Of a DNA stretch of 34,394 nucleotides, positions 3,453 through 32,982 are shown piece after piece. The stretch spans positions 1 through 34,394 of the IMG/VR virus record IMGVR_UViG_3300030107_005422, one strand, 5' to 3'. This stretch comes from a virus. The stretch's first letter is position 1, and every line of letters starts with the position of its first letter. The translations under genes were made by a program, and so were the position numbers. The notes beneath the pieces were generated by a model. The model was not told the origin of the DNA. It saw nothing but the letters and a program-made list of their open reading frames with translations, and searched no databases.

Positions 3453-3743
3453 TTGAGTTATGCTAAAATTGCCAAAGGGGTGCAATCTGAATTTATTGCA
3501 GCTGCTTGGCTCTCAAAACAAGATTACACAATTTACTGGAGAACACAGGATAATGATCCAATAGATATAGTTGCAGTACATAGAGTAACAGGAAAAGTTT
3601 TAAAGATAGATGTTAAAACAGCATCTTATCGCAAGACCTGGAAACCAGGTACAATGATTAGTAGGAATCAAAGTAAATACCAAAAACAATTAGGAGTGAA
3701 AATATTATATGTCTTTAAAGATGGCAGCTGCAAGTTTAAGTGA
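3453..3743 (+). CDS. Small PD-(D/E)XK-type nuclease (resolvase-like)
   Basis: 96 aa, from TTG 3453, two bases after the preceding stop; no ATG upstream fits. The core has DPIDIVAV (about 31-38), then a strand and KIDVKTAS (about 48-55), the D...(D/E)xK pattern of the restriction-endonuclease fold used by small Holliday-junction-resolvase-like enzymes. A basic tail follows. The nuclease likely acts on branched or phage DNA during replication or packaging. Its 3' end overlaps the lysozyme start by 35 nt. Fold assignment is motif-based; substrate is inference. Confidence 0.65.
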   Translation: MSYAKIAKGVQSEFIAAAWLSKQDYTIYWRTQDNDPIDIVAVHRVTGKVLKIDVKTASYRKTWKPGTMISRNQSKYQKQLGVKILYVFKDGSCKFK

Positions 3744-4143
3744 AGTTAAAGAAAGAGTACGATCCCATGAGGGTTTTGAATTAGAGCCTTATGTAGATAC
3801 ATTAGGGTATCTCACAGGGGGGGTAGGTCATAAGATCTTACCATCCGAAGAAGTACCAACAACAGAAAAAGGTTGGTTAAAATTATATGACCAGGATTTT
3901 GATAAAGCAGTAGCAGCTGCGGATGAGATTACCCCAGGGGATATTCATCCAACAGCTTTTGGTATTATTGTAGAAATGATTTTTCAGTTGGGAAAACAAG
4001 GCTGTATGAATTTTAAAAAAATGCATAAAGCCCTGGCTGAGAAAGACCACATCGAGGCAAGTTTACAGATGCTTGATTCGAAGTGGAGAAAACAAACTAA
4101 AGCAAGATGTGAAAGTCTTGCAGAATTAATGAGGAGTATATGA
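3709..4143 (+). CDS. Endolysin, T4-type lysozyme (GH24)
   Basis: 144 aa, normal for the family. It cleaves the glycan backbone of peptidoglycan for lysis. The catalytic triad spacing is exact: E21 (SHEGFELEPY), D30 (VDTLGY) and T36, that is E-8-D-5-T as in T4 lysozyme E11/D20/T26, followed by GGVGH. No signal peptide or SAR segment is seen, so release should depend on a holin, and a 3-TM holin lies just downstream. ATG 3709 overlaps the nuclease gene; ATG 3721 (fifth codon) is an alternative start. AGGAG near 3690 may serve the first. Confidence 0.92.
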   Translation: MSLKMAAASLSEVKERVRSHEGFELEPYVDTLGYLTGGVGHKILPSEEVPTTEKGWLKLYDQDFDKAVAAADEITPGDIHPTAFGIIVEMIFQLGKQGCMNFKKMHKALAEKDHIEASLQMLDSKWRKQTKARCESLAELMRSI

Positions 4144-9307: not shown

Positions 9308-9504
9308 TATGAATCCGCCCAGGTTGTTTGTTTAATGTGATTCCATATATTTCTGTGTGCAATAGGACTTAATCCTTTTTGTTTTCTCCTGGCTGCACAT
9401 TCTTTTTTTACTGCATCCTCACGATCCATGTTTTTCCAATCGTGTGCAGTACAAATTATTTTTTTCTTAGAAACAAAATTAATTACTTTTGCTGGTTTAC
9501 TCAT
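9307..9504 (-). CDS. Small basic protein between nuclease and annealing genes
   Basis: 65 aa from ATG 9504, chosen because GGAGGG lies about six bases upstream and the ATG overlaps the exonuclease stop (ATGA). The protein is Lys/Arg-rich, with two cysteines and a HDW motif (TAHDWKNMDREDAVKKECAA). There is no clear domain. Its place inside the recombination operon suggests DNA binding or a nuclease partner. Confidence 0.6.
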   Translation of the reverse strand: MSKPAKVINFVSKKKIICTAHDWKNMDREDAVKKECAARRKQKGLSPIAHRNIWNHIKQTTWADS

Positions 9505-10424
9505 ATAGCCCTCCATAGCTGTTTACATCTAGCGACATACTCATCGCCAAAATCCCAATACGGATCAGAAAATTCTGGATCTATTTTGGATAAAATTTCT
9601 GTTAGTGAACTTGAGGAAGAAACAATATTTTGCCTTATAATATTTTTTCTTGTGTATTCTTCCCAAGCCCAATCAATTGCATCCTTACTTAATGCATCGT
9701 GGCTTTCATCAAATATTTCAAATCTTTTATGTTCTAATTTAGATTGTTTGTTAATCGTTCCTGGAGCAACATCGTTAATATAAACAATAAATATTTTTTT
9801 ATTAGTAGCCTTTTTATAAAATGCTGTTTGTCTAATATGTGATTCACTTGGGGAATCTGGTATAGATCCTATATTACAACTCCAGCCACCATCGGGATTT
9901 TTTTTAGTTTTCTTTAATTCTTTTGGTTTTGCTCGTTGTTTTGTTTTTAATTCAACAATGACATCTTTACTTTCATAATCAATAAAACCTGTCATTGGCA
10001 ATTCAACTTTAGGCATATTTGCCCATGCTCCAGTTTCAGATTTTATTTTTAATTTTTTATAATTTGGGAATATTTCTTTTAATGCCTCAATGCCATTTCG
10101 CACCAGCTGCGGCATTCCCTCTAAAATTTTTTCGTGATGTATTGATTCTTTATCTTTGAATAAAGATTTTTTTAAATTGAATTGAAATTCTCCCTCTTTA
10201 GCAGCAACATCTTCATCAAGTTTATCTATTATAGCAGCATTAATTCCATCTTGTGCTGCATTACCCGCTACTAAAATTGGTTTTGTTTTAAATTGTTTTC
10301 TTTCTTCGTAAGTACAACATAAATATTTTCCAGCCCATAATCCGTTTGATTGATTTGATTGTGAGGGAGATGTGTGGTCTAAAGAATACTTTAACCAATG
10401 CTGCGGTATTTCATTATTTTGCAT
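9501..10424 (-). CDS. RecB/Cas4-like exonuclease (PD-(D/E)XK)
   Basis: About 307 aa. I prefer ATG 10424 over 10430, because AAGGA then sits about seven bases upstream. The core MTGFIDYESKDVIVELKTK gives the D (GFIDY) and ExK (ELK) of the PD-(D/E)XK fold. A later helix with HIRQTAFYKKA resembles the QxxxY motif of RecB/Cas4-type nucleases. It likely degrades one strand for annealing-type recombination and heads the operon that also holds the annealing- and SSB-like genes. A promoter with an operator copy lies just upstream (10444-10472). Confidence 0.75.
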   Translation of the reverse strand: MQNNEIPQHWLKYSLDHTSPSQSNQSNGLWAGKYLCCTYEERKQFKTKPILVAGNAAQDGINAAIIDKLDEDVAAKEGEFQFNLKKSLFKDKESIHHEKILEGMPQLVRNGIEALKEIFPNYKKLKIKSETGAWANMPKVELPMTGFIDYESKDVIVELKTKQRAKPKELKKTKKNPDGGWSCNIGSIPDSPSESHIRQTAFYKKATNKKIFIVYINDVAPGTINKQSKLEHKRFEIFDESHDALSKDAIDWAWEEYTRKNIIRQNIVSSSSSLTEILSKIDPEFSDPYWDFGDEYVARCKQLWRAI

Positions 10425-10443
10425 AACCATCCTTTTTGGATGA

Positions 10444-20562: not shown

Positions 20563-23073
20563 ATGGCAAGAGCATCTTTTGCAATATCAAATTTTACAGC
20601 GGGTGAGCTATCTCCGCAACTAGACGGAAGAACAGATCTAGGTAAATATTTTAATGGAGCAAAGACTTTAGAAAACTTTACTATTTATCCTCATGGTGGA
20701 GCATCAAGACGACCAGGCTCAATGTTTGTCCATGAAGTAAGAGATAGCGATAATAAAACAAGAATTATACCTTTTGAATTTTCTACAACTGATACTTACA
20801 TTTTAGAATTAAGTAATACAAAGATTCGTTTTTATAGAGATGGAGGTATTATTACAGAAACAGCTGATAATATAACTGCTATTACAAAAGCAAATCCAGC
20901 TGTTGTTACATCAAATGGTCATGGTTTTAGTAATGGTGATCATGTAATTATTTCTGGAGTTGGTGGTATGACAGAAGTTAATGGTATTACTTTTACTGTT
21001 GCTAACTCAACAACTAATACTTTTTCTTTACAAAATTATGATGGTACAGCAATCAATTCATCTGCTTATACAACGTACACATCTGGTGGCACAGCACAAA
21101 AAATTTATGAAATAACATCCCCTTATGCCACAGCAGATATTCCCGATATAAAATTTGCTCAAAGCTCCGATATTATGTATTTGGTGCATCCAAATTATTC
21201 TATTCGTAAATTATCAAGAACAGCTCATACATCCTGGACATTAACAGAAGTATCTATCACCACAGGTACAGATATTACTGTTAGTGCAATAACACAAGCC
21301 AATCCTGGAGTTGTAACTACATCAACTAATCATGGATTTATTAAAGGTAATTATATTACTTTTACAAACATTGGTGGAATGACACAATTAAATGACAATG
21401 TTTATAAAGTTGGCAATGTATTAAATGAATTTTCTATAACTGGTATTACCCAGGCTAATCCAGGAGTTGTTACAACATCAGCTGCACATGGTTTAGCTGT
21501 TGGTGAAAAAGTTACCATTACTGGTGTTAAAGGAATGACACAAGTTAATGATACAACTTTTACAGTTAAAAATGTAGGATCATCAACTACTTTTGAATTA
21601 TCAGATGCAGTTGGTGCAAATTGGAATACAACAAATTATACTGCGTATGCATCAGCTGGTACTGTTACAACACCCGATTTAAAATTTGAAATAAATGATA
21701 GTGATGGTAACAATTTAAATACTAGCGGCTATGGATCTTTTTCTGCTGGAGGTAGTGATGTAGTTACAAAATTAACAAGCCCCGTATTAAATAAAGGTAC
21801 AGGCACTTATCCAAGTTGTGTTGTCTTTTATGAACAACGATTAATATTTGCTGGAAGTAATAATAATCCGCAAACATTATGGTTTTCAAAAACAGATTCC
21901 CTGGAAGATTTTACAGTAGGATCTGATTCAGCTGATGGAATGACATACTCTATTGCATCTAATAAAGGTAATGCTATTAAATATTTAACAGTTACCAGGT
22001 CTTTAATTTGCGGTACAGCTGGTGGTGAATTTTCAGTTACAGCATCATCTTCTGCCGAGCCTATTACTCCGACAAACATACAAATAAAAAAACAATCAAG
22101 TTATGGATCATCGGGAATTGATGCAGTATCAATTGGTAATGCTACAATGTTTGTGCAACGAGCTAAAAGAAAAGTAAGAGAGCTTGTTTATAATTATGAT
22201 ACTGATGGATTTGTAGCACCCGACACAACTATATTAGCTGAACATATTACCGATACAGGTATTGTAGAAATGTCATATCAGCAAGAGCCTCAAAGTATTT
22301 TGTGGTGTGTAAGAACAGATGGAGTTTTAATTGGTTTAACGTATGCAAGAAATGAGCAAGTTGTTGGATGGCATCGACATATATTTGGTGGAGTTTTTGG
22401 ATCGGGAAATGCTATTGTAGAAAGTGTTGCAACTATACCTGGAGATCTTAATGAAGATGTTACTTATGTTGTTGTTAAAAGAACAATTAATGGAGCAACC
22501 AGGAGATATGTTGAATACTTACAACCAGTAGATTATGGCTCAGATTTAACAGCTGCATTTTTTGTTGATAGTGGTTTAACTTATAATGGTGGTGCAACAA
22601 CAACTATAACGGGATTAAATCATTTAATTGGTCAATCAGTAACTATACTTGCCGATGGATCAACACATCCAAACAAAACAGTTAGTAGTACAGGATCTAT
22701 AACTTTAGATAGATCTTCAACAAAAGTACAAATAGGCTTAGGTTATAATTCTACACTACAAACAATGCGACTAGAGGCGGGTAGCCAGGATGGTACAGCC
22801 CAGGGCAAAACAAAACGTATTCACAATTTAACAGTTCGTTTATTTGAAACTGTTGGATTGTTAGTAGGAAAAGACACAACAAATTTAGATAGAGTTCCTT
22901 TTAGATCTAGTGCAGCTGCAATGGACACAGCTGTGCCATTATTTACAGGGGATAAAGAAATCGAATTTGATGCTGATTATGATACAGATGGTTTCATAGT
23001 CATACAACAAAACCAACCATTGCCGATGAATGTGATAGCATTATATCCGCAATTCTCAACTTACGATGGCTAG
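20563..23073 (+). CDS. Tail nozzle protein (gp12-like) with FCCH-type repeats
   Basis: 836 aa. The start (FTAGELSPQLDGRTDLGKY, then NFTIYPHGGASRRPG) is typical of podovirus tail nozzle/stabilisation proteins. Residues about 106-370 have inserted beta repeats: ITKANPAVVTSNGHGF, ITQANPGVVTTSTNHGF and ITQANPGVVTTSAAHG, each with a VxGMTxxN-type turn. These resemble E1-FCCH-like repeats seen in many phage tail proteins. The rest is a large beta-rich body. It overlaps the next gene by 8 nt. Confidence 0.85.
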   Translation: MARASFAISNFTAGELSPQLDGRTDLGKYFNGAKTLENFTIYPHGGASRRPGSMFVHEVRDSDNKTRIIPFEFSTTDTYILELSNTKIRFYRDGGIITETADNITAITKANPAVVTSNGHGFSNGDHVIISGVGGMTEVNGITFTVANSTTNTFSLQNYDGTAINSSAYTTYTSGGTAQKIYEITSPYATADIPDIKFAQSSDIMYLVHPNYSIRKLSRTAHTSWTLTEVSITTGTDITVSAITQANPGVVTTSTNHGFIKGNYITFTNIGGMTQLNDNVYKVGNVLNEFSITGITQANPGVVTTSAAHGLAVGEKVTITGVKGMTQVNDTTFTVKNVGSSTTFELSDAVGANWNTTNYTAYASAGTVTTPDLKFEINDSDGNNLNTSGYGSFSAGGSDVVTKLTSPVLNKGTGTYPSCVVFYEQRLIFAGSNNNPQTLWFSKTDSLEDFTVGSDSADGMTYSIASNKGNAIKYLTVTRSLICGTAGGEFSVTASSSAEPITPTNIQIKKQSSYGSSGIDAVSIGNATMFVQRAKRKVRELVYNYDTDGFVAPDTTILAEHITDTGIVEMSYQQEPQSILWCVRTDGVLIGLTYARNEQVVGWHRHIFGGVFGSGNAIVESVATIPGDLNEDVTYVVVKRTINGATRRYVEYLQPVDYGSDLTAAFFVDSGLTYNGGATTTITGLNHLIGQSVTILADGSTHPNKTVSSTGSITLDRSSTKVQIGLGYNSTLQTMRLEAGSQDGTAQGKTKRIHNLTVRLFETVGLLVGKDTTNLDRVPFRSSAAAMDTAVPLFTGDKEIEFDADYDTDGFIVIQQNQPLPMNVIALYPQFSTYDG

Positions 23074-23512
23074 TTTAATAGAGTTTAAAAAAGACCATGC
23101 TCACGCAATGGTTAAAGGAATAATGAATAGTTCTTATACGCAAGTAGATGAAAGTTTACGACCATTACTTGATGGACTAGAAGTTAAAAATATGAGTTTT
23201 ACAGCCATTGACGATAATAAAAATATTATTTGTAGTGGTGGTATCGTTCCTATGTGGGATGGTGTTTATGAGGGATGGGTAATGGCAAGTCAGTTGTCAT
23301 ACAAATATCCAGTAACATCAGCTAGGGTAATTAAAAAAGGATTAGAAAAATTGATAAAAGATTTTAATGTTGTTCGTTTGCAGACAGCTGTAAAAAAAGA
23401 TTTTGCTATAGGTAAAAAATTTGCTGCTTGGCTTGGAATGACATTAGAGGGCGAAATGCCAAAATACCAAAACGAACAAGATTATTTAAGATATGCGAGG
23501 ATTTATAAATGA
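23066..23512 (+). CDS. gp13-like protein with GNAT-type fold
   Basis: 148 aa. The order FTAIDDNKNIICSGGIVPMWDG, then W with SARVIKKGLEKLIKDF and FAAWLGMTLEGEMPKY follows the GNAT-like fold of T7 gp13-type proteins. No clear catalytic site is seen, and in T7 this protein aids virion assembly. It lies where gp13 lies in T7, between the nozzle and the internal proteins. ATGA overlap with the next gene. Confidence 0.75.
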   Translation: MASLIEFKKDHAHAMVKGIMNSSYTQVDESLRPLLDGLEVKNMSFTAIDDNKNIICSGGIVPMWDGVYEGWVMASQLSYKYPVTSARVIKKGLEKLIKDFNVVRLQTAVKKDFAIGKKFAAWLGMTLEGEMPKYQNEQDYLRYARIYK

Positions 23513-24171
23513 GTATTTTAACAAAACACCCAGCAGCACCACAAGACAGCTTTGCTTTTAGTAATAATATTAATTACGATCCAGGTACAATAATGGTTGC
23601 TGGATCAACAATTTCTGCTGGTGCAAGTTTATACAGCGGATTGGCAGAATCAAATGCTTATAATGCACAATCACAAGTTGATTTACAAAATGCAGAATTA
23701 GCCGAAGATAATGCAGCGGCAACAATGGAATTAGCTTATCAAAACATTGCTGCCTTTGAAGAAGAATATGATTCATTTGAAAGTGAAACAATTGTTAATT
23801 ATGCAAAATCGGGTGTTAAATTAGATAGCCCTACTGTTATTGAAGTTATGCACGATAATCGATCAAATGCAGAAGTAGAAAAAGCAATGATTAGATATAA
23901 TGCAAGGATTGATTCAAATGAAAAAATTGTTCAAGCTGGACAGTTTAAAACACAAGCAGCTATTAATAGAATGAATGCTAAAGCAGCTAAAATTAAAGCT
24001 ATTGCTAATGCTGGATCATCTATGGTTACAGCTTATGGAGGATATAAACAAGTAAAAACACAATCGGTGTTTAATAAAGCAATGTTAAAATCCCAAAAAG
24101 AATTTACTCAACAATTAATTTTACTCAATAACAATCACAGAATGTTGATGGCTCAAAAAGGAATATACTAA
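23509..24171 (+). CDS. Internal virion protein B-like (gp14)
   Basis: 220 aa. An N-terminal glycine-rich hydrophobic part (IMVAGSTISAGASLYSGL, about 27-44) is followed by a long Ala/Gln/Asn helix region and IANAGSSMVTAYGGYK near residue 160. This is the typical ejectosome protein gp14 layout, which spans the outer membrane after ejection. It starts with an ATGA overlap and its last base is shared with the next ATG. Confidence 0.8.
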   Translation: MSILTKHPAAPQDSFAFSNNINYDPGTIMVAGSTISAGASLYSGLAESNAYNAQSQVDLQNAELAEDNAAATMELAYQNIAAFEEEYDSFESETIVNYAKSGVKLDSPTVIEVMHDNRSNAEVEKAMIRYNARIDSNEKIVQAGQFKTQAAINRMNAKAAKIKAIANAGSSMVTAYGGYKQVKTQSVFNKAMLKSQKEFTQQLILLNNNHRMLMAQKGIY

Positions 24172-26615
24172 TGGTAAAAATTAAACGATATAGAAAACAA
24201 ACAGCTGCAACAAATAAAGCACCAAATACTTATTCTGGTATTCAATATAATCCAAGTGATTTTTCAAGAGCCTCCGATGCGATTGCAAGATTTGGTAAAA
24301 CAACACAAAATGTTGGTTTAAATTTATTAGAACAAAAAGAAAATAATAAAGCAAAAATGGATCAATTAAAAACTGATCAAGAATTAAAGATGCTTGAAAC
24401 TTTAGAAAAACAACAAACCGATATGGATGTTTTTCAATTAAAAATAGATCGAGAAAATTTATTACATGAAAAAATGAGTTTTGCTTTAAGTGGCACAGAA
24501 GATAATCCAGGTCTAAACTCTATTGCTAATGATTATATAAATAATCCCGATTATCAAAATAATGAAGAAAATTTTATTAATGCATCTAAAATTAGAAAAG
24601 ATGAAATTTTAGCTACTATTGATGATGAAGTTGTAAAAAGAGATTTTTCAAAAAAATACGATACTAAATCTGATGCATTAAAATTAAATGTAATGAACGG
24701 ATCTTTTAAAACGGGATTAGCTCAACGTACAGCAGCTTATCAAGCTGAACACAAGGGGTTATTATATGACTTAGAATTTGGTAATGCTTTAGATCAGTTA
24801 GCTGCTAAAAATAGATTGTTGGGATTAAATGGAGTTAAAGGTATTCATGAGGAGGCTTTTGAAAGTGGTATTATAAATACAACACCAGAATTAGCCGAAC
24901 AATATAGTTTACAAGATGTAGAATTTATCCAGGCTAAACTAATGATAGCAGATGATCCAAAAAAATATATGGATTTAGCCGAGGGTAAAACACATGAATT
25001 TCCATTTAAAAATTTAAGCATTGAACAACGAGCAACTTTAGACATTAAAGCAAAAGATGCGCTTGATGTAATTCAAAATAGAGAGGCAGCAAATATAAAA
25101 AAACAAATAACTGCTAATAAAGCAATTGTTAAAGATATTACGGATAAAATAGATGAGGGTATAATAATTGAAAATGGGTTGATTGATCTTGGTACAGCAA
25201 GAGCTATTGCAACAGAATTGGGCGATACCGAAACAGTTAAAAACATAGATAATTATATGTTTATGTGGGGTACGTTCCAAATGGCAAGACAATCAAATCC
25301 TTTAGATCTTGATGCTAAAATTATAGAAGTACAAAAAAGAATTGATCAAGCAAATACTTTAAAAACAACCGAAGTTCCTCCAGGAGAACAAGGAACGCAA
25401 GGAGTTAATCCAAAAGATTTATTAGAACTAAAAGCTCTTACAACTATTAGAACAAAAATGGCAACAGAATTAAATAATGATTCACTTAAATGGGCAAACA
25501 AAGTGAATAAAATAGATTTACAAATGATGGATTTAACTCTTGATGCAGATGGATGGAAAAATTGGGTTACTAACCGCACAGCAAATGCTGAACTAACAGC
25601 TGCTATTTATGGCACAAAAAGAGATTTTTTAACAAAAGACGAACAAAAACTTATAATGAATTACTGGCAAAGTGATAACACATCAATTGATGATAAAGTT
25701 TTGATGATTGCTAGATTGGCTGAATTTGGAGTAGATGCTGATAATGTTTTTGAAGAAATTTTAACAAAAGGTGATGGAAAAAAAGAGGCTGGATATTTTG
25801 CTCATATAGCTGGTTTAATGAATAGTAATCCTAATAGCCCTATAATTGGAGAATTAGCAGCTGATTTCTTTAATGGTTTTGCTAAACGATTAGATTTTAG
25901 TAATCCCCCAACTGAATTATTATTAGGTGAAGAAAGAAATATTTTAAAAAGTAATGCACAAGAAATATTTAATGATCATTTTAATGGATCATTAATTCAT
26001 GCCGATCCAACGTTAAATAGGACTATTTTTGATATGGCTAATTTAATTTATTTAGATAAAGGCAATCAAAGCACAAAACAAATTGATAAAAAAATATATA
26101 AAAATATTTTAAATGAATTAGTTGGTGGCACAACTATTGGAGGAGTTAATTATGGTGGTCTTACAGAATATAATGGACAAGAAACTTTTGTACCATCTTG
26201 GATGGCAACGGATGATTTTGAAAAAGTTATAAATAGTTTAAGGTACGATGAATGGGATTTAGTATCAGCTGGTCAAGTTCCTCTTTGGAATAATGGATCA
26301 AATACAGGTGAGTTTGAATTAAATGGTGATGTTTTTAATAGAAATTTTGATTCAAGTTTTTTTGAAGAAGCAACACAATCACTCGGAGAACGAAGAAGTG
26401 ATTTAGGTAATTATGACCAGCCTTATTTATGGGTAGTAGGAGATGGTAAATATATTGTATCTTTTAATAGCCCATTAGGTAGTGAAGATCCTCAATACCT
26501 AGCAACTAAAAATAATGATAATGGTTATTTTGTTTTAGATCTAAATCAAATTAAAGATAAATATTTAAATAAGGAATTAGTTGCACAAAAAAATCCAAAT
26601 TGGATAATTGAATGA
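24171..26615 (+). CDS. Internal virion protein C-like (gp15)
   Basis: 814 aa, helical and charged, similar in size to T7 gp15. A basic N-terminus (MVKIKRYRKQ) precedes Phe-rich coil segments; later segments have alternating helices and loops, without a clear enzymatic motif. It sits between gp14-like and gp16-like genes, as in T7. It should form the periplasmic tunnel for DNA ejection. The assignment rests on position, size and style. Confidence 0.7.
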   Translation: MVKIKRYRKQTAATNKAPNTYSGIQYNPSDFSRASDAIARFGKTTQNVGLNLLEQKENNKAKMDQLKTDQELKMLETLEKQQTDMDVFQLKIDRENLLHEKMSFALSGTEDNPGLNSIANDYINNPDYQNNEENFINASKIRKDEILATIDDEVVKRDFSKKYDTKSDALKLNVMNGSFKTGLAQRTAAYQAEHKGLLYDLEFGNALDQLAAKNRLLGLNGVKGIHEEAFESGIINTTPELAEQYSLQDVEFIQAKLMIADDPKKYMDLAEGKTHEFPFKNLSIEQRATLDIKAKDALDVIQNREAANIKKQITANKAIVKDITDKIDEGIIIENGLIDLGTARAIATELGDTETVKNIDNYMFMWGTFQMARQSNPLDLDAKIIEVQKRIDQANTLKTTEVPPGEQGTQGVNPKDLLELKALTTIRTKMATELNNDSLKWANKVNKIDLQMMDLTLDADGWKNWVTNRTANAELTAAIYGTKRDFLTKDEQKLIMNYWQSDNTSIDDKVLMIARLAEFGVDADNVFEEILTKGDGKKEAGYFAHIAGLMNSNPNSPIIGELAADFFNGFAKRLDFSNPPTELLLGEERNILKSNAQEIFNDHFNGSLIHADPTLNRTIFDMANLIYLDKGNQSTKQIDKKIYKNILNELVGGTTIGGVNYGGLTEYNGQETFVPSWMATDDFEKVINSLRYDEWDLVSAGQVPLWNNGSNTGEFELNGDVFNRNFDSSFFEEATQSLGERRSDLGNYDQPYLWVVGDGKYIVSFNSPLGSEDPQYLATKNNDNGYFVLDLNQIKDKYLNKELVAQKNPNWIIE

Positions 26616-29600
26616 CGGGTATTTTTTTTAACGAACAAAGCACCTTATCGGTATTTAACCAGGCAGATAAGTCTAAAGGATTTAGAACAAATTTTAGTGA
26701 TAATTATGAGGCGGGAAAAGCAGATTTTTATGCCAGGCTTAGATCTGATTCAAAAGCTATTGGATTTAATGAAGTATTCCAAGAACAATTTGATTTATTT
26801 AGTGAAATATCTGGAGAAAAAAATTTAATTAATCCTTTACATCTTGGTCATCCTTTAGTTGTTCCTATGCCACAAGTAGAGGCAGAAGTTAATGCTTATA
26901 ATGATGCATTAGATAGTAGTGCAGATTTTGAAACACTAGCAAGAGAGGGTTACAAAACACAATACCAAGGACATCTTGAATGGTATTTTAATAAAGTTGA
27001 TGAATTAAAAAAATTAGATCCTATTAAGTTTAAAGATTTAAAAACAAAAGAAGAAATAGATCAAGAAGTTATTGAGAGAACAAAAGATAAATATGAAAAA
27101 AATCTACAAGTACAGGCTAATTTTGAGCCTGGATTATTTGGGTGGAATTGGGGGCAATTAGCAGCTGGTGCTAGAGCTGGTATTACTGATCCGCTTATTT
27201 TAGCCTCTTTACCTGTTTCTGTAGCAGCAGCACCTTGGACAGCTACAGGAATGGTAGGAATGCAATTTCTTAAAACTTTTGCGGTTGAGGCTGTAATAGG
27301 TATGGTAGCAGAATCTGCTATCCAGGTAGGTGTTTATAATTATAATAATACCGAGCTTGGTATTAATTATTCTAAAAAACAAGCAGCTGCAACTATTCTA
27401 ACAGTTGGGGTAGCAAGTGGGGTATTATCAAATGTTATGCTTGGCTTATTTAAAGCGGGAGCAATTCCATTACGTCAATATCAAGAATATAAAATTTCTA
27501 AAGATCCCGAGGCTTGGTTAGAAAAAAATCTTACATCCATTATTGAACAAGCAACAAGAACTCAACCAGAAACAAAAAAATTAATTATGGATGCTTTATC
27601 AGAATTACCAAGAGAAGATTTGATAAAATTTGTTAAAGGTTTGCCCAATAATATGAAAACCAGAAGTATTTATAAATTTATAGATATGGAGGAAAACAAA
27701 CTAATTGAAATAAAAAGTAATCCTTTTAAAAAAAATACAAAAAATGATTTAGAATTTCAAAACAGATTAGATGAGGCAAAAGAAAATTTAATAGACGAAA
27801 CAATACCAAATAATGAAAGACCAATTATACAGCTTGATGAAAGCACCAAAGAATATGCTGATGGTTTTGTTGAATTTAAAATTGATGAATTAGAAGTTGA
27901 TGCCAAAGTATTTCAATACAAAGAGGGTGGAGATGAATTTGGGGTTACAGATAGATTAAAAGATGTTACCGAATGGAATCCTCATGCATCAAATGCTATT
28001 ATGGTTTATGAGTTTGCTGATGGTAGAAAAGTTATTGTTGATGGACACCAACGATTAGGATTAGCAAAAAGAATACTAGCTCAAAAAGATGGGCAAAAAC
28101 CAAAACTTGTTGGAATGTTATATAGAGAAGTTGATGGTTATGCTCCAGATCAAATTAGAATTTGGGCTGCTATAAAAAATATCCAGGAGGGCAGCGGTAC
28201 ATCAGTTGATGCAGCAAAGATACTGAGAATATCAAAAAAGAATTTTGATAATTTTAAGGCATCATTACCTAAAAGATCTAGCTTAGTTAGAGAGGCAATG
28301 GAAATGTATGATTTAGCTGATGATGCTTTTGATTTAGTTGTTCGAGGACAATTTCCACCAGCTCATGCAGCTTTAGTAGCAAAATTAGTTAAAGATAAAT
28401 CAATGCATAAAACTATTTTGGAATTATTAAGACAAGTAAATCCAGATAATTTATCTAAAGCTAGAGCTATTATTCTCCAAGCAAAAGATAGTGGAACGCA
28501 AATAATTGAACAAACAGATCTACTGGGTACAGAATTTATTAAAAAATCATTATTTTCTAACAAAGCAGATATATTAGATACAGTTATTAGAAATTTAAGA
28601 GCTGATAAAAATCTATTTAAAAGATTGAATTTACAAAAAAATAAAATAAACTCATCGGGAAAAAATGTTCTTGATGAAAAGTATAATAAAAACAGGGAAT
28701 CAATAAATGAAAAAATCTTACAACTCATCGAAAAACAAGCAACCAGAAGTGGAAACCAACTCGCAGAAGATCTTAACATCGCAGCCAAACTCCACGCAGA
28801 CGGAAACGAAAAAGCTGCCATTGAACAATTCGAAGAAGCCATCCAACGAGCAAATGCAAGAGGCGATTTTGATGGGTACGATGTTAGCGGATTTGGGAAT
28901 ACTCAAAGATCTCCAATCGAGAGCCACCGCATCGCTGAAGAAGAAGATTTAAGTACAGCAAAACCACAAGAAGAATTTTCAGAAGTAAGCGGTAAAGGTC
29001 AGCAAGAACAAGGCGATCATTTAATAGATCAATTAAATGAAGTTATTGAAATACAAAATAAAGCTGAACGAGGAGAGTTTGGTGTTGATGGTGAAGAAAT
29101 ATTACAAAATACATCTCCTATAGATAGATCTATTGTTACACCTATTTTAAATAAAATAGATCCAGATATTTTAAAAGAGGCTCTTGAAACAATTAATAAA
29201 GCTAGGGCAAATCAAAACTTAAAGCCATTTAAAACTTTAGATGATGCTATTGATCAATATGAAAAAGACCAAATTGCTCTTAATAAATTAAATACTACTG
29301 AGAGTATTATAGATACTCCAGAAAGAGTTGCTATACAAAATGATAACTTAAATATTTTAGAATATAATTTAGGTCATTCAAAATATGAAGATAAATTATT
29401 TCAAGGAAAACCAAATGCAGAAAAGATAATTGTTTTTGTTATGGGTAAGCCTGGTAGTGGCAAATCTACTATTGAGGCTGTTCCATTAATTAAAAAATTA
29501 AAAGCAGTATTGCTTGATGTAGATGAGGCAAAAAAATTATTTCCAGAATATAATAATGGTAAAGGGGCAGCTGTTATCCATGAGGAAAGTGCAAAGGTAT

Positions 29601-30412
29601 CTGCACAGTTGGCGGTTAGATCTGTAGAAAAAGGTTATAATATAGTATATCCTGTTGTTGGATCTAATGCTGATAGTTTGCTTGGTAAAATAGCATTATT
29701 CAAAAAAAATGGATATAAGGTATATTTACATAATGTTGATATTCCTGGAGATGAATCCTATAGACGAGCATTTGTAAGGTATTTACAAACAGGAAGATTA
29801 ATTGATCATGGATATTTAATAAATGTTGGAAATAAACCTAATGAAGTGTATAATTATATTAAAACATTAAAGATATTAAATGGCTATAAAAAAACAGATA
29901 ATTTCGTCAAACGAGGAGAAAAACCCATACTCATTGAAAAGGAGGGAGGATTTTCTCTCGGAGAAAGTAGAATTGACACAACTCCAAAAAGAGTTCAAGA
30001 AACTGGATCAGCAAAAACAAGAACAGCAGCCGAACAAAAAAGACTAGATCAAATACAAGATAATATTAATAAAGCCGAAGTTCTTGTAAAAGAATATAAA
30101 AAACTATCAGCTCTCCCTTGGCACAAAAAAATAGTTGGGAAAACAGCTCAAAGACTTGATGAAGTAGATAAAGAAATAAAAGCTCTTAAAAAAGAATATG
30201 ATGAGCTTGTTTTACAAAAAGATACAAAAAATACATCTAATATTCTTTCAGATAATCAAAAGCTCCTGGATGAATTTATGGATGATGAATTTTCCGTATC
30301 ATCAAAAATAGAAGAAGATGAAATTATAGCAGATATGGTTACTGCAAAAGATGTTTTATCGGATATTAATAATGACCAGGCAATACTTAACAGATTGAGA
30401 GATTGTGTATGA
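26612..30412 (+). CDS. Giant ejection protein (gp16 position) with ParB-like and zeta-toxin-like domains
   Basis: 1266 aa. Residues about 185-285 are hydrophobic (PLILASLPVSVAAAPW, then AAATILTVGVASGVLSNVML), likely a membrane block. Residues about 425-490 look ParB-like, with VIVDGHQRLGLAKRI (D477-R481), followed by a helical part with IKNIQEGSGTSVDAAKIL. Residues about 938-1080 resemble zeta-toxin kinases: P-loop GKPGSGKST (945-953), LLDVDEAKKLFPEY with D969/D971, HEESAKVSAQLAV and RYLQTGRLID. A charged coiled coil follows. This is the polyvalent protein style of phage. It is probably injected with DNA. No transglycosylase motif is seen. Confidence 0.8.
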   Translation: MTGIFFNEQSTLSVFNQADKSKGFRTNFSDNYEAGKADFYARLRSDSKAIGFNEVFQEQFDLFSEISGEKNLINPLHLGHPLVVPMPQVEAEVNAYNDALDSSADFETLAREGYKTQYQGHLEWYFNKVDELKKLDPIKFKDLKTKEEIDQEVIERTKDKYEKNLQVQANFEPGLFGWNWGQLAAGARAGITDPLILASLPVSVAAAPWTATGMVGMQFLKTFAVEAVIGMVAESAIQVGVYNYNNTELGINYSKKQAAATILTVGVASGVLSNVMLGLFKAGAIPLRQYQEYKISKDPEAWLEKNLTSIIEQATRTQPETKKLIMDALSELPREDLIKFVKGLPNNMKTRSIYKFIDMEENKLIEIKSNPFKKNTKNDLEFQNRLDEAKENLIDETIPNNERPIIQLDESTKEYADGFVEFKIDELEVDAKVFQYKEGGDEFGVTDRLKDVTEWNPHASNAIMVYEFADGRKVIVDGHQRLGLAKRILAQKDGQKPKLVGMLYREVDGYAPDQIRIWAAIKNIQEGSGTSVDAAKILRISKKNFDNFKASLPKRSSLVREAMEMYDLADDAFDLVVRGQFPPAHAALVAKLVKDKSMHKTILELLRQVNPDNLSKARAIILQAKDSGTQIIEQTDLLGTEFIKKSLFSNKADILDTVIRNLRADKNLFKRLNLQKNKINSSGKNVLDEKYNKNRESINEKILQLIEKQATRSGNQLAEDLNIAAKLHADGNEKAAIEQFEEAIQRANARGDFDGYDVSGFGNTQRSPIESHRIAEEEDLSTAKPQEEFSEVSGKGQQEQGDHLIDQLNEVIEIQNKAERGEFGVDGEEILQNTSPIDRSIVTPILNKIDPDILKEALETINKARANQNLKPFKTLDDAIDQYEKDQIALNKLNTTESIIDTPERVAIQNDNLNILEYNLGHSKYEDKLFQGKPNAEKIIVFVMGKPGSGKSTIEAVPLIKKLKAVLLDVDEAKKLFPEYNNGKGAAVIHEESAKVSAQLAVRSVEKGYNIVYPVVGSNADSLLGKIALFKKNGYKVYLHNVDIPGDESYRRAFVRYLQTGRLIDHGYLINVGNKPNEVYNYIKTLKILNGYKKTDNFVKRGEKPILIEKEGGFSLGESRIDTTPKRVQETGSAKTRTAAEQKRLDQIQDNINKAEVLVKEYKKLSALPWHKKIVGKTAQRLDEVDKEIKALKKEYDELVLQKDTKNTSNILSDNQKLLDEFMDDEFSVSSKIEEDEIIADMVTAKDVLSDINNDQAILNRLRDCV
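28707..28952 (+). CDS. Possible overprinted gene inside the giant ejection gene
   Basis: 81 codons in the +1 frame. AGGGA (28694-28698) lies eight bases before the ATG, a normal ribosome site. The product is basic: a polar K/N/S/T/Q half, then a helix-like EQMQEAILMGTMLADLGIL and a basic end. In this stretch the host gene changes to many C-ending codons, unlike its A/T-ending neighbours, as expected if two frames are constrained. Not proven; a short segment of foreign origin is the alternative. Confidence 0.4.
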   Translation: MKKSYNSSKNKQPEVETNSQKILTSQPNSTQTETKKLPLNNSKKPSNEQMQEAILMGTMLADLGILKDLQSRATASLKKKI

Positions 30413-32982
30413 GTTTAAAAGAATGTATTTTAAATGCTAATAAAGAGGGAATTATTGATGATCAAAAAAAATCAGACATCCAAGGTCATTTTGAAAGTTT
30501 AGAAAAAGATTTTATTAATCAAGGTTTATCAAAAACTGATGCAGAAAAAGAGGCGGGTAAATTAACTTATGATGCTTTAAAGCATGAGGCTATTGAAAAG
30601 AAAAGACAAGCTATGCTTACTCTTATTGCCCAAGCAAAAATTAAAAAATTTATGAAAACATTTCGTAATGCAAGTGGAGAATTAGATCCAGCGGAGGCAA
30701 TGGTAGCAGCTCTTTCTCCTAATCATAGAATGCCATTTTCTGATTTACAATCCCGATACATGACAGTTAGAGGACAAATATACAAACGTATGACAAATTA
30801 TATTTTAAAATTTAAAAGAACAATGACGGGTGGTACTGTAAATGAAAAAGTAATGGATGATGTTGTGAGAGAAATGTTTGAGCCTGGAAGTACAAAAAAT
30901 CCTATTGCAAAAGAATTAGCCGAGGCTGTGAGTGATGCTTTGGAATTTGCTAGAACAAAATATAATGCCGCTGGTGGAAGAATACAAAAATTAAAAAAAT
31001 ATGGAATGCCACAAAACCATGATTCTATTTTAGTTACTAAATTTACTAAAGAGGCTTGGATAAAAAAAGTTGGAGGCTATGATGATAAAGGTAAGTTTAA
31101 CGGAAAAGGAATGTTAAATCTTGATGAAATGATAGATGAAAAAACAGGGCTAAAATTTAATGAAAATAGTTTGTATCTTGCTCTTGGGGAAGTTTGGGAA
31201 ACAATTACAACTGAGGGTTATAACAAAGTTAGACCAGGCACATCAGCTGGATATGGAAAAAGTATTGGTAATAGAAGAACAGATCATCGTTTTTTAAAAT
31301 TTAAAGATGCTGATACCTGGATGGAATATCAACGAGAATTTGGTAAGTCAGATCCATTTTCTACTGTAATTGGACATCTTGATAGTATGGCAAGAGATAT
31401 AACATCTATGGAAGTTTTAGGTGCAAATCCTAATGCAACAATTAGATGGATGAAAGATACTTTAAAAAAACAAGGAGCTTTAGATGATCAAAAAGGATTA
31501 AAAAGAAAAAAACAAATGCCTGGAAGAACAAATAAAGACAGAATGAGAGTAAAAACAAATTTAATTGAAAATATATGGGCATTACATAATGGCTCTTTAA
31601 ATGCACCTATTGATGGATCTGTATCAAGATCTTTAGCGGGTGTTCGTCAATTACTGACAGCTGCTCAACTTGGATCAGCATCTATTCTAGCTTTAGGTGA
31701 TTTTAACTTTACGAGAATTGCAGCTAGATTTAATGGATTAAATGCAACAAGAGCAATGTTTTCTAATTTAAAACAAATGTCAAAGGGGATGTATTCTAAT
31801 GAATTAGCAGAAGTAGCAATGTCATCGGGTTTAATAGCAGAATCTTTTTTAACTGTAGGGGCTGCCCAGGCACGATTAATGGGCGATATATATTCTCCCG
31901 AATTAGCAAAAAGAATTAATGAAACTGTACTTAGAGTAAGTGGATTATCACACATGACACAAGCGGGTAAAATGGGTTTTGGTATGGAATTTTTTAGAAC
32001 ATTATCTAAATATTCTAATTTAAAATATAATAAACTTAATTCTTCTTTTAGAGGATTTTTAGAACGAAATGGTATTGGAGAAGATGCTTGGAATATTATA
32101 CGATCAACACCACAATATGAACACAAAGGAGTGAAGTTTATTCGCCCCGATGATATTTTTGCCAATACTGATATTTCAGAAAATGTGGCAAAAGATATAT
32201 CTAACCGATTAATGGATGGAATTAATAGAGAAATAGAATTTGCAGTACCATCTGCATCGTATCGAGCTAAAGCAACTTTAAAAGGAGATACAAGACCTGG
32301 TACAATACAAGGAGAGTTATTGTTATCTGCGGGAATGTATAAAAATTTTGCATTAACTATTGCTTATACTCATATAGCAAGAGCTATGTTTGGTAATGTT
32401 AAAACATTTGCTGGTAAAACTGGATATGCTACAAGTTTGTTTCTTACATCAACTTTAATAGGAGCATTAACTGTTGAGTTAAAAAATCTTTCAAAAGGAA
32501 AAGATGTAACTAAATGGGAAGATATGGATGCAAAATATTGGGCTTATGCAGCAGTACATGGTGGAGGATTTTCAATCTTTGCAGATTTTATATATTCAAC
32601 TGTTAATAGATTTGGTGGGGGTATAGCAACAACTATTGCTGGATCTCCTGTAGCTCTAGCACAAGATACATTTAGATTAGCGGTTACTAACCCCTATAAA
32701 GAAATATCTGATTTATTTACAGAAGATGATTATGATGTGAATTGGGGTAAGGATCTATCAAATTATTTTAAAAGATATATGCCTGGAGCATCTTTATGGC
32801 AAATACGATTACTTATTGAAAGAATATTTGTGGACACATTACAAGAATGGGCTGATCCAGAATTTAATAAATCAGTAAGAAAAAAGGAGAATAAATTAAG
32901 AAAAAGAACTGGACAGGAATATTGGTGGGGAGCTGGAGATAAAAAACCAGAAAGATCACCAGAAATAAATATATTTAAATAA
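30409..32982 (+). CDS. Second large virion/polyvalent-type protein
   Basis: About 857 aa from ATG 30409, which overlaps the preceding TGA (ATGA). The N-terminal part is helical (about 1-250), with YGMPQNHDSILVTKF and later GALTVELKNLSKGKDV, then GGGFSIFADFIYSTVNRFGGG near the C-terminus. The last part has Gly-rich hydrophobic segments and LALAQDTF-like helix, a pattern I associate with C-terminal regions of large phage polyvalent proteins (perhaps LPD38-like). It probably travels in the virion with the preceding protein. No catalytic motif is visible. Confidence 0.65.
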   Translation: MSLKECILNANKEGIIDDQKKSDIQGHFESLEKDFINQGLSKTDAEKEAGKLTYDALKHEAIEKKRQAMLTLIAQAKIKKFMKTFRNASGELDPAEAMVAALSPNHRMPFSDLQSRYMTVRGQIYKRMTNYILKFKRTMTGGTVNEKVMDDVVREMFEPGSTKNPIAKELAEAVSDALEFARTKYNAAGGRIQKLKKYGMPQNHDSILVTKFTKEAWIKKVGGYDDKGKFNGKGMLNLDEMIDEKTGLKFNENSLYLALGEVWETITTEGYNKVRPGTSAGYGKSIGNRRTDHRFLKFKDADTWMEYQREFGKSDPFSTVIGHLDSMARDITSMEVLGANPNATIRWMKDTLKKQGALDDQKGLKRKKQMPGRTNKDRMRVKTNLIENIWALHNGSLNAPIDGSVSRSLAGVRQLLTAAQLGSASILALGDFNFTRIAARFNGLNATRAMFSNLKQMSKGMYSNELAEVAMSSGLIAESFLTVGAAQARLMGDIYSPELAKRINETVLRVSGLSHMTQAGKMGFGMEFFRTLSKYSNLKYNKLNSSFRGFLERNGIGEDAWNIIRSTPQYEHKGVKFIRPDDIFANTDISENVAKDISNRLMDGINREIEFAVPSASYRAKATLKGDTRPGTIQGELLLSAGMYKNFALTIAYTHIARAMFGNVKTFAGKTGYATSLFLTSTLIGALTVELKNLSKGKDVTKWEDMDAKYWAYAAVHGGGFSIFADFIYSTVNRFGGGIATTIAGSPVALAQDTFRLAVTNPYKEISDLFTEDDYDVNWGKDLSNYFKRYMPGASLWQIRLLIERIFVDTLQEWADPEFNKSVRKKENKLRKRTGQEYWWGAGDKKPERSPEINIFK

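Follow-up and report, generated by a model that had tools for sequence, protein, structure and literature searches.

Is a phage protein that carries a ParB-like and a zeta-toxin-like segment a poison of the bacterial cell wall, or does it serve another purpose at the start of infection? The question is raised by a 1266-aa protein encoded in IMGVR_UViG_3300030107_005422, a linear virus record of 34,394 bases with a GC content of 33%, which was analyzed over its full length (the window). A sequence-only reading had placed this protein at the gp16 position and had proposed a kinase acting on UDP-sugars of wall synthesis. The source phage is an HTVC010P-like marine podovirus, kin to phages of SAR11 bacteria: its head-tail connector is ~57% identical to the counterparts in the Pelagibacter phages HTVC034P and HTVC010P, and a host of SAR11 type is likely. 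No near DNA matches to the record were found in the phage collection. Other features of the window include a lysozyme (3709-4143), a phage integrase (4843-6078, minus strand), a region (9501-10430, minus strand) that weakly resembles phrog_1706 ('CRISPR/Cas system associated'; E=3.7e-7), and a tail protein (20563-23073) with matches to the E1_FCCH domain (PF16190, E=1.1e-33).

The gene of interest (26612..30412, plus strand, stop included) is an open reading frame starting from ATG. The frame is intact, and every motif named beforehand was found, with DGHQR at aa 477-481, GKPGSGKST at 945-953, LLDVDE at 967-972, and TGRLID at 1060-1065. Upstream lie the genes for a gp14-like internal virion protein (23509..24171, plus strand; phrog_418, E=3.7e-14) and for an 814-aa protein (24171..26615, plus strand), which takes the place of phiV10p18 in the gene order and had no family match in Pfam, PHROGs or NCBIfam. 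Downstream follows a virion structural protein in the gp17 slot (30409..32982, plus strand; phrog_684, E=3.5e-146), a homologue of phiV10p20; its start is likely the ATG at 30409, while the list of open reading frames gives a TTG at 30403. Since this order (internal virion proteins, gp15-like, the gene of interest, gp17-like) is identical to that of phiV10 and epsilon15, the protein occupies the gp16 slot, i.e. that of an ejection protein, and the position assigned to it earlier holds. The gene overlaps both neighbors by 4 nt (ATGA at 26612 on the gp15 side and ATGA at 30409 at the likely gp17 start), leaving no space for a neighboring antitoxin gene. In keeping with the earlier remark that an antitoxin was not obvious, no adjacent epsilon-type antitoxin was detected, nor any antitoxin family in the part of the small open reading frames that was scanned.

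Gene order and homologous systems suggest that the protein is delivered into the host. T7 gp16 has a periplasmic N-terminal part, and its C-terminal portion, which binds DNA, has been placed in the host cytoplasm; internal proteins are ejected by epsilon15 too (PMC8954989). The window protein resembles T7 gp16 and the gp16-slot proteins of epsilon15 and phiV10 in gene order and position, being a large protein between a gp15-like and the next virion gene, but it differs from them in an N-terminal region without detectable homology, in the lack of a detected lysozyme domain, and in the additional ParB-like and kinase domains. This N-terminal region (aa 1-416; 26612..27859, plus strand) was delimited by alignment, hydropathy and survey, and is common to the gp16-type relatives. 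As a homologue of T7 gp16 or phiV10p19 it was rejected, as no sequence similarity was detectable. It gave no match to solved structures and matched phrog_342 weakly (E of 0.013 with the whole protein, 0.1 with the region alone). The 'membrane block' reported earlier stands as a hydrophobic stretch (aa 189-287, with a Kyte-Doolittle peak of 1.89 at 262-280), but only a moderate one: it is no textbook transmembrane set, and it is weaker in distant relatives. Both the ParB-like and the kinase domains lie C-terminal to this stretch.

The DGHQR region is, according to the predicted structure, a whole ParB/Noc-like unit, consisting of an NTP-binding and a helical DNA-binding domain. The former has the ParB/Srx fold (aa 417-527; 27860..28192, plus strand) and matched ParB 7bm8 over 95 residues with a Z-score of 8.8 (model m30aac6b35bb3); it encloses DGHQR (28040-28054, plus strand) as well as KNIQ at aa 522-525. 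The latter is an HTH-type domain (aa 528-628; 28193..28495, plus strand) that matched the DNA-binding domain of Noc (6y93; Z 8.8, 95 residues, rmsd 3.2). Across both domains, 7nfu (Z 10.3) and 6t1f (Z 10.2) were matched, by a model of middling confidence (pLDDT 67, pTM 0.47). The ParB-like character claimed for this segment is thus borne out by predicted fold (Z ~10) and not by Pfam: the DGHQR domain alone had no Pfam match at E<=1, including ParBc (PF02195) and the DdrB-like ParB family. A profile of the domain gave only chance matches to PDB sequences, so that comparison of folds was needed. The region containing DGHQR is nevertheless a recurrent phage domain, matched by phrog_10691 with E=4e-46, and D477-G-H-Q-R481 as well as N523 are invariant in the 26 rows of the alignment.

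Like the ParB/Noc CTP clamps, the unit has an NTP-binding domain followed by a helical DNA-binding domain, with the G..R and N motifs; unlike them, it has no match to PF02195 and no identified dimerization domain, and its catalytic residues differ. Where Caulobacter ParB has GERR and ENxxR, the window protein reads GHQR and KNxxE, the second motif being placed by alignment and the first by motif. Thus, R104 and N136 are kept, whereas R103 is changed to Q and R139 to E, and the residues for CTP hydrolysis, E102 and E135, are replaced by H479 and K522. With these four residues replaced, CTP hydrolysis as in ParB would not be expected. As judged from these residues, CTP binding in the manner of ParB is uncertain; that the nucleotide cannot be read from the sequence is the theme of a section heading in a 2025 survey (PMC12704722).

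The C-terminal half contains a zeta-toxin-fold kinase (aa 930-1108; 29399..29935, plus strand). Pfam Zeta_toxin (PF06414) matched aa 933-1080 with E=4.7e-17 and a score of 62.5 bits (cut-off, 22.3), within the range of 930-1090 proposed earlier, and phmmer aligned the region to zeta 1GVN with E=3.7e-4. A model built from ten relatives (mf60222490914, pLDDT 76) matched the zeta toxin structures 1gvn/3q8x with a Z-score of 19.0 (rmsd 2.8, 186 residues), followed by PezT (Z 17.8) and AvrRxo1 (Z 15.6). The zeta-type P-loop kinase of the sequence-only reading is therefore confirmed by family and by predicted fold, including a structural match to zeta kinases, the absence of which would have spoken against that reading. 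The catalytic core is intact. Lys951 of the Walker A motif GKPGSGKS (29444..29467, plus strand) corresponds to zeta Lys46 and is invariant in 29/29 gp16-type and 30/30 other rows. R1056 (zeta R158) is kept in all covering rows, and R1062, which by sequence motif is taken to be the counterpart of zeta Arg171, in nearly all. Asp971 (29522..29524, plus strand), invariant in 59/59 rows, aligns with zeta Asp67, the catalytic base (PMC3062530). Phosphotransfer would be expected from this modeled fold and core.

Scans recovered four close relatives (L001, L003, L004 and L005) and a further 49 viral loci, plus bacterial loci. In a survey with profiles of the N-terminal, ParB and zeta regions, 29 records were of gp16 type: 24 had all three regions, and five (L020, L031, L043, L051 and L061) combined the N-terminal region with zeta. 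A gp17-like gene lay in the same locus in 23 of the 29 (18/24 and 5/5, respectively). As some of the contigs overlap or nearly duplicate one another (L027/L064, L036/L066), the number of independent cases is lower. One of the five lacking ParB, L031, is located with its gp17-like gene on a contig of a Rhodobacter MAG, possibly as a prophage. A zeta domain was also noted in a 1727-aa protein in another phage context (L021:8288-13471). Isolated pelagiphages were absent from the tblastn hits of the 1266-aa protein; in HTVC034P, the corresponding region is occupied by gp44, which carries LPD38 but gave no match to zeta. That the zeta domains of gp16 type share one origin was considered, but the zeta tree did not bear this out: its well-supported branches require a minimum of four switches between gp16-type and other contexts, which suggests that zeta modules pass from one phage protein to another.

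Between kinase and C-terminus lies a variable slot (aa 1118-1210; 29963..30241, plus strand), with 18-37% identity compared to ~80% in the domains. In L004, an ART-PolyVal-like domain (L004:2961-3560; PF18760, E=1.4e-6, narrowly missing the curated cut-off) is found between zeta and the C-terminal tail, where the slot of the window protein is variable, and this suggests that effectors may be swapped here. The tail itself (aa 1240-1266, ending in NDQAILNRLRDCV; 30329..30409, plus strand) has similar counterparts in most complete gp16-type relatives and is possibly a packaging signal. Tails of this type often read DQxMLDRLxGCVV with a Cys near the end, and a near-end Cys likewise occurs in phiV10p19 and in DVVG_00008 of SI2. 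The ParB and zeta domains are under purifying selection, whereas the linkers and the C-terminal slot are not: NG86 omega was 0.16 and 0.06 for ParB and 0.27 and 0.16 for zeta, compared to 0.81 and 0.68 for the second linker and ~1 for the variable slot, which is perhaps non-homologous where modules were swapped (0.68-1.34 for both regions together).

What the kinase might phosphorylate depends on its binding pocket. In Streptococcus pyogenes zeta, UNAG is contacted by Thr118, Arg120, Thr128 and Glu100 (PMC3062530); in the window protein, these positions are V, S, K and A, respectively. The Thr118 position is Val in 24/28 gp16-type homologues covering the region, the same change having made PezT non-toxic, and the position aligned with Glu116 is Pro in 28/28. 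The gp16-type clade carries its own signature, roughly DxDEAKKxxPE(Y/F)xxGxGAxxxHxES and NxxxPx(V/T)G. By these residues, the domain is a kinase of zeta fold whose binding pocket differs. The UDP-sugar substrate proposed earlier is thus not supported by the comparison, the UDP-GlcNAc-binding residues being replaced, and the kinase probably acts on a substrate other than cell-wall sugars. That it phosphorylates UDP-GlcNAc or UDP-MurNAc and so stops peptidoglycan synthesis would fit the zeta fold with its intact core and is the role put forward for the zeta-like kinases of polyvalent proteins (Iyer et al. 2017; PMC5512222). Gonococcal zeta1 holds UDP-sugars in another pose, with a preference for UNAM, so that binding could also be achieved by different residues of the pocket. 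Against the lost contacts and the uniform proline, we regard such a cell-wall poison as unlikely.

Other roles would dispense with the cell wall altogether. The ParB clamp and the kinase fold could serve DNA translocation only (grip, ratchet, nucleotide sensing), without any host target. This would be compatible with the DNA binding of the C-terminal part of T7 gp16, with the case of SI2, where the same slot contains ParB but gave no match to zeta, and with the five relatives that have zeta but no ParB. Without phosphotransfer, it would be difficult to explain why the catalytic Asp and Arg set is invariant, and L004 bears an effector-like ART module within the same protein, which makes a pure entry device improbable. 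Alternatively, the kinase could modify a nucleotide-type metabolite or signal (e.g. NAD-like) and thereby disarm an early host defense. AvrRxo1, which directly follows zeta and PezT in the ranking of structural matches, is a precedent, its products being reported as 3'-NADP and 3'-NAADP (PMC5087710), and the ART neighbor in L004 belongs to an NAD-type enzyme class. But fold likeness does not give the substrate, and no specific residue evidence points this way; we consider counter-defense of this kind very unlikely.

The overall build has precedents. Polyvalent proteins, which are injected and include ParB domains and zeta-like kinases, have been described (Iyer et al. 2017; PMC5512222). The window protein, encoded by a late virion gene and assembled from several disparate domains, is of this kind: it is large, presumably virion-linked, and joins unrelated domains including ParB and a zeta-like kinase, with an ART-PolyVal-like domain in the variable slot of L004. 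It differs in the setting of the kinase, which here belongs to a gp16-type protein of a podovirus but in the described polyvalent proteins is found in MuF fusions or conjugative elements, and in that its ParB part lacks a Pfam model match and is joined to an HTH-type domain. From zeta toxin and PezT (PF06414), with which it shares fold, P-loop, catalytic Asp and Arg pair, the kinase is set apart by its replaced UNAG-binding residues, the missing antitoxin, and its place in a giant protein of a virion operon. Gp114 of halovirus HCTV-5, with 1293 aa, is likewise annotated with zeta toxin and ParB nuclease domains, but there zeta precedes the ParB motif and the gene adjoins an integrase gene, not a podovirus ejection operon. 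A PNAS survey of ParB from 2025 does not mention zeta. Among open-licence papers, we found none joining zeta toxin with pelagiphage or with 'polyvalent proteins', and none on the combination of N-terminal region, ParB and zeta in ejection proteins. Hence, zeta and ParB in injected polyvalent proteins are already published, while the conserved ejection-protein architecture is, as far as we found, apparently new; it looks like a known strategy in a new arrangement.

Taken as a whole, we favor, with a probability of about 0.6, a gp16-type ejection protein of an HTVC010P-like marine podovirus with polyvalent build, whose ParB/Noc-like clamp and kinase for a substrate other than UDP-GlcNAc act early in infection. 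The protein would be packed in the phage head and would exit with the gp14- and gp15-like proteins before the DNA. The N-terminal part, which contains the hydrophobic block, would reach the inner membrane, and everything C-terminal to the block would then sit in the host cytoplasm, in line with the proposal for the C-terminal part of T7 gp16. There, the ParB/Noc-like unit may grip or clamp DNA, most simply the incoming phage genome, and the kinase may phosphorylate either a nucleotide-type substrate or some small metabolite of the host that is not UDP-GlcNAc, which would blunt host growth or defense ahead of phage gene expression. A more specific version is speculative and, in our view, rather doubtful: in a wide group of marine podoviruses, an NTP-gated clamp could keep hold of the incoming genome where the ejection channel opens into the cytoplasm, and a tethered kinase with the zeta fold and a new substrate specificity could work at this point of entry before transcription of the phage begins. 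Because the catalytic residues of ParB are replaced, such a clamp may shut a single time without opening again.

These results touch two open questions, namely how podoviruses take up their DNA before transcription and what role injected proteins play in the cytoplasm. As many marine phages conserve a ParB-like clamp and a kinase in the gp16 slot, both questions become testable with purified domains. They also advise caution, in that annotation of a phage protein as zeta toxin need not imply an attack on the cell wall.
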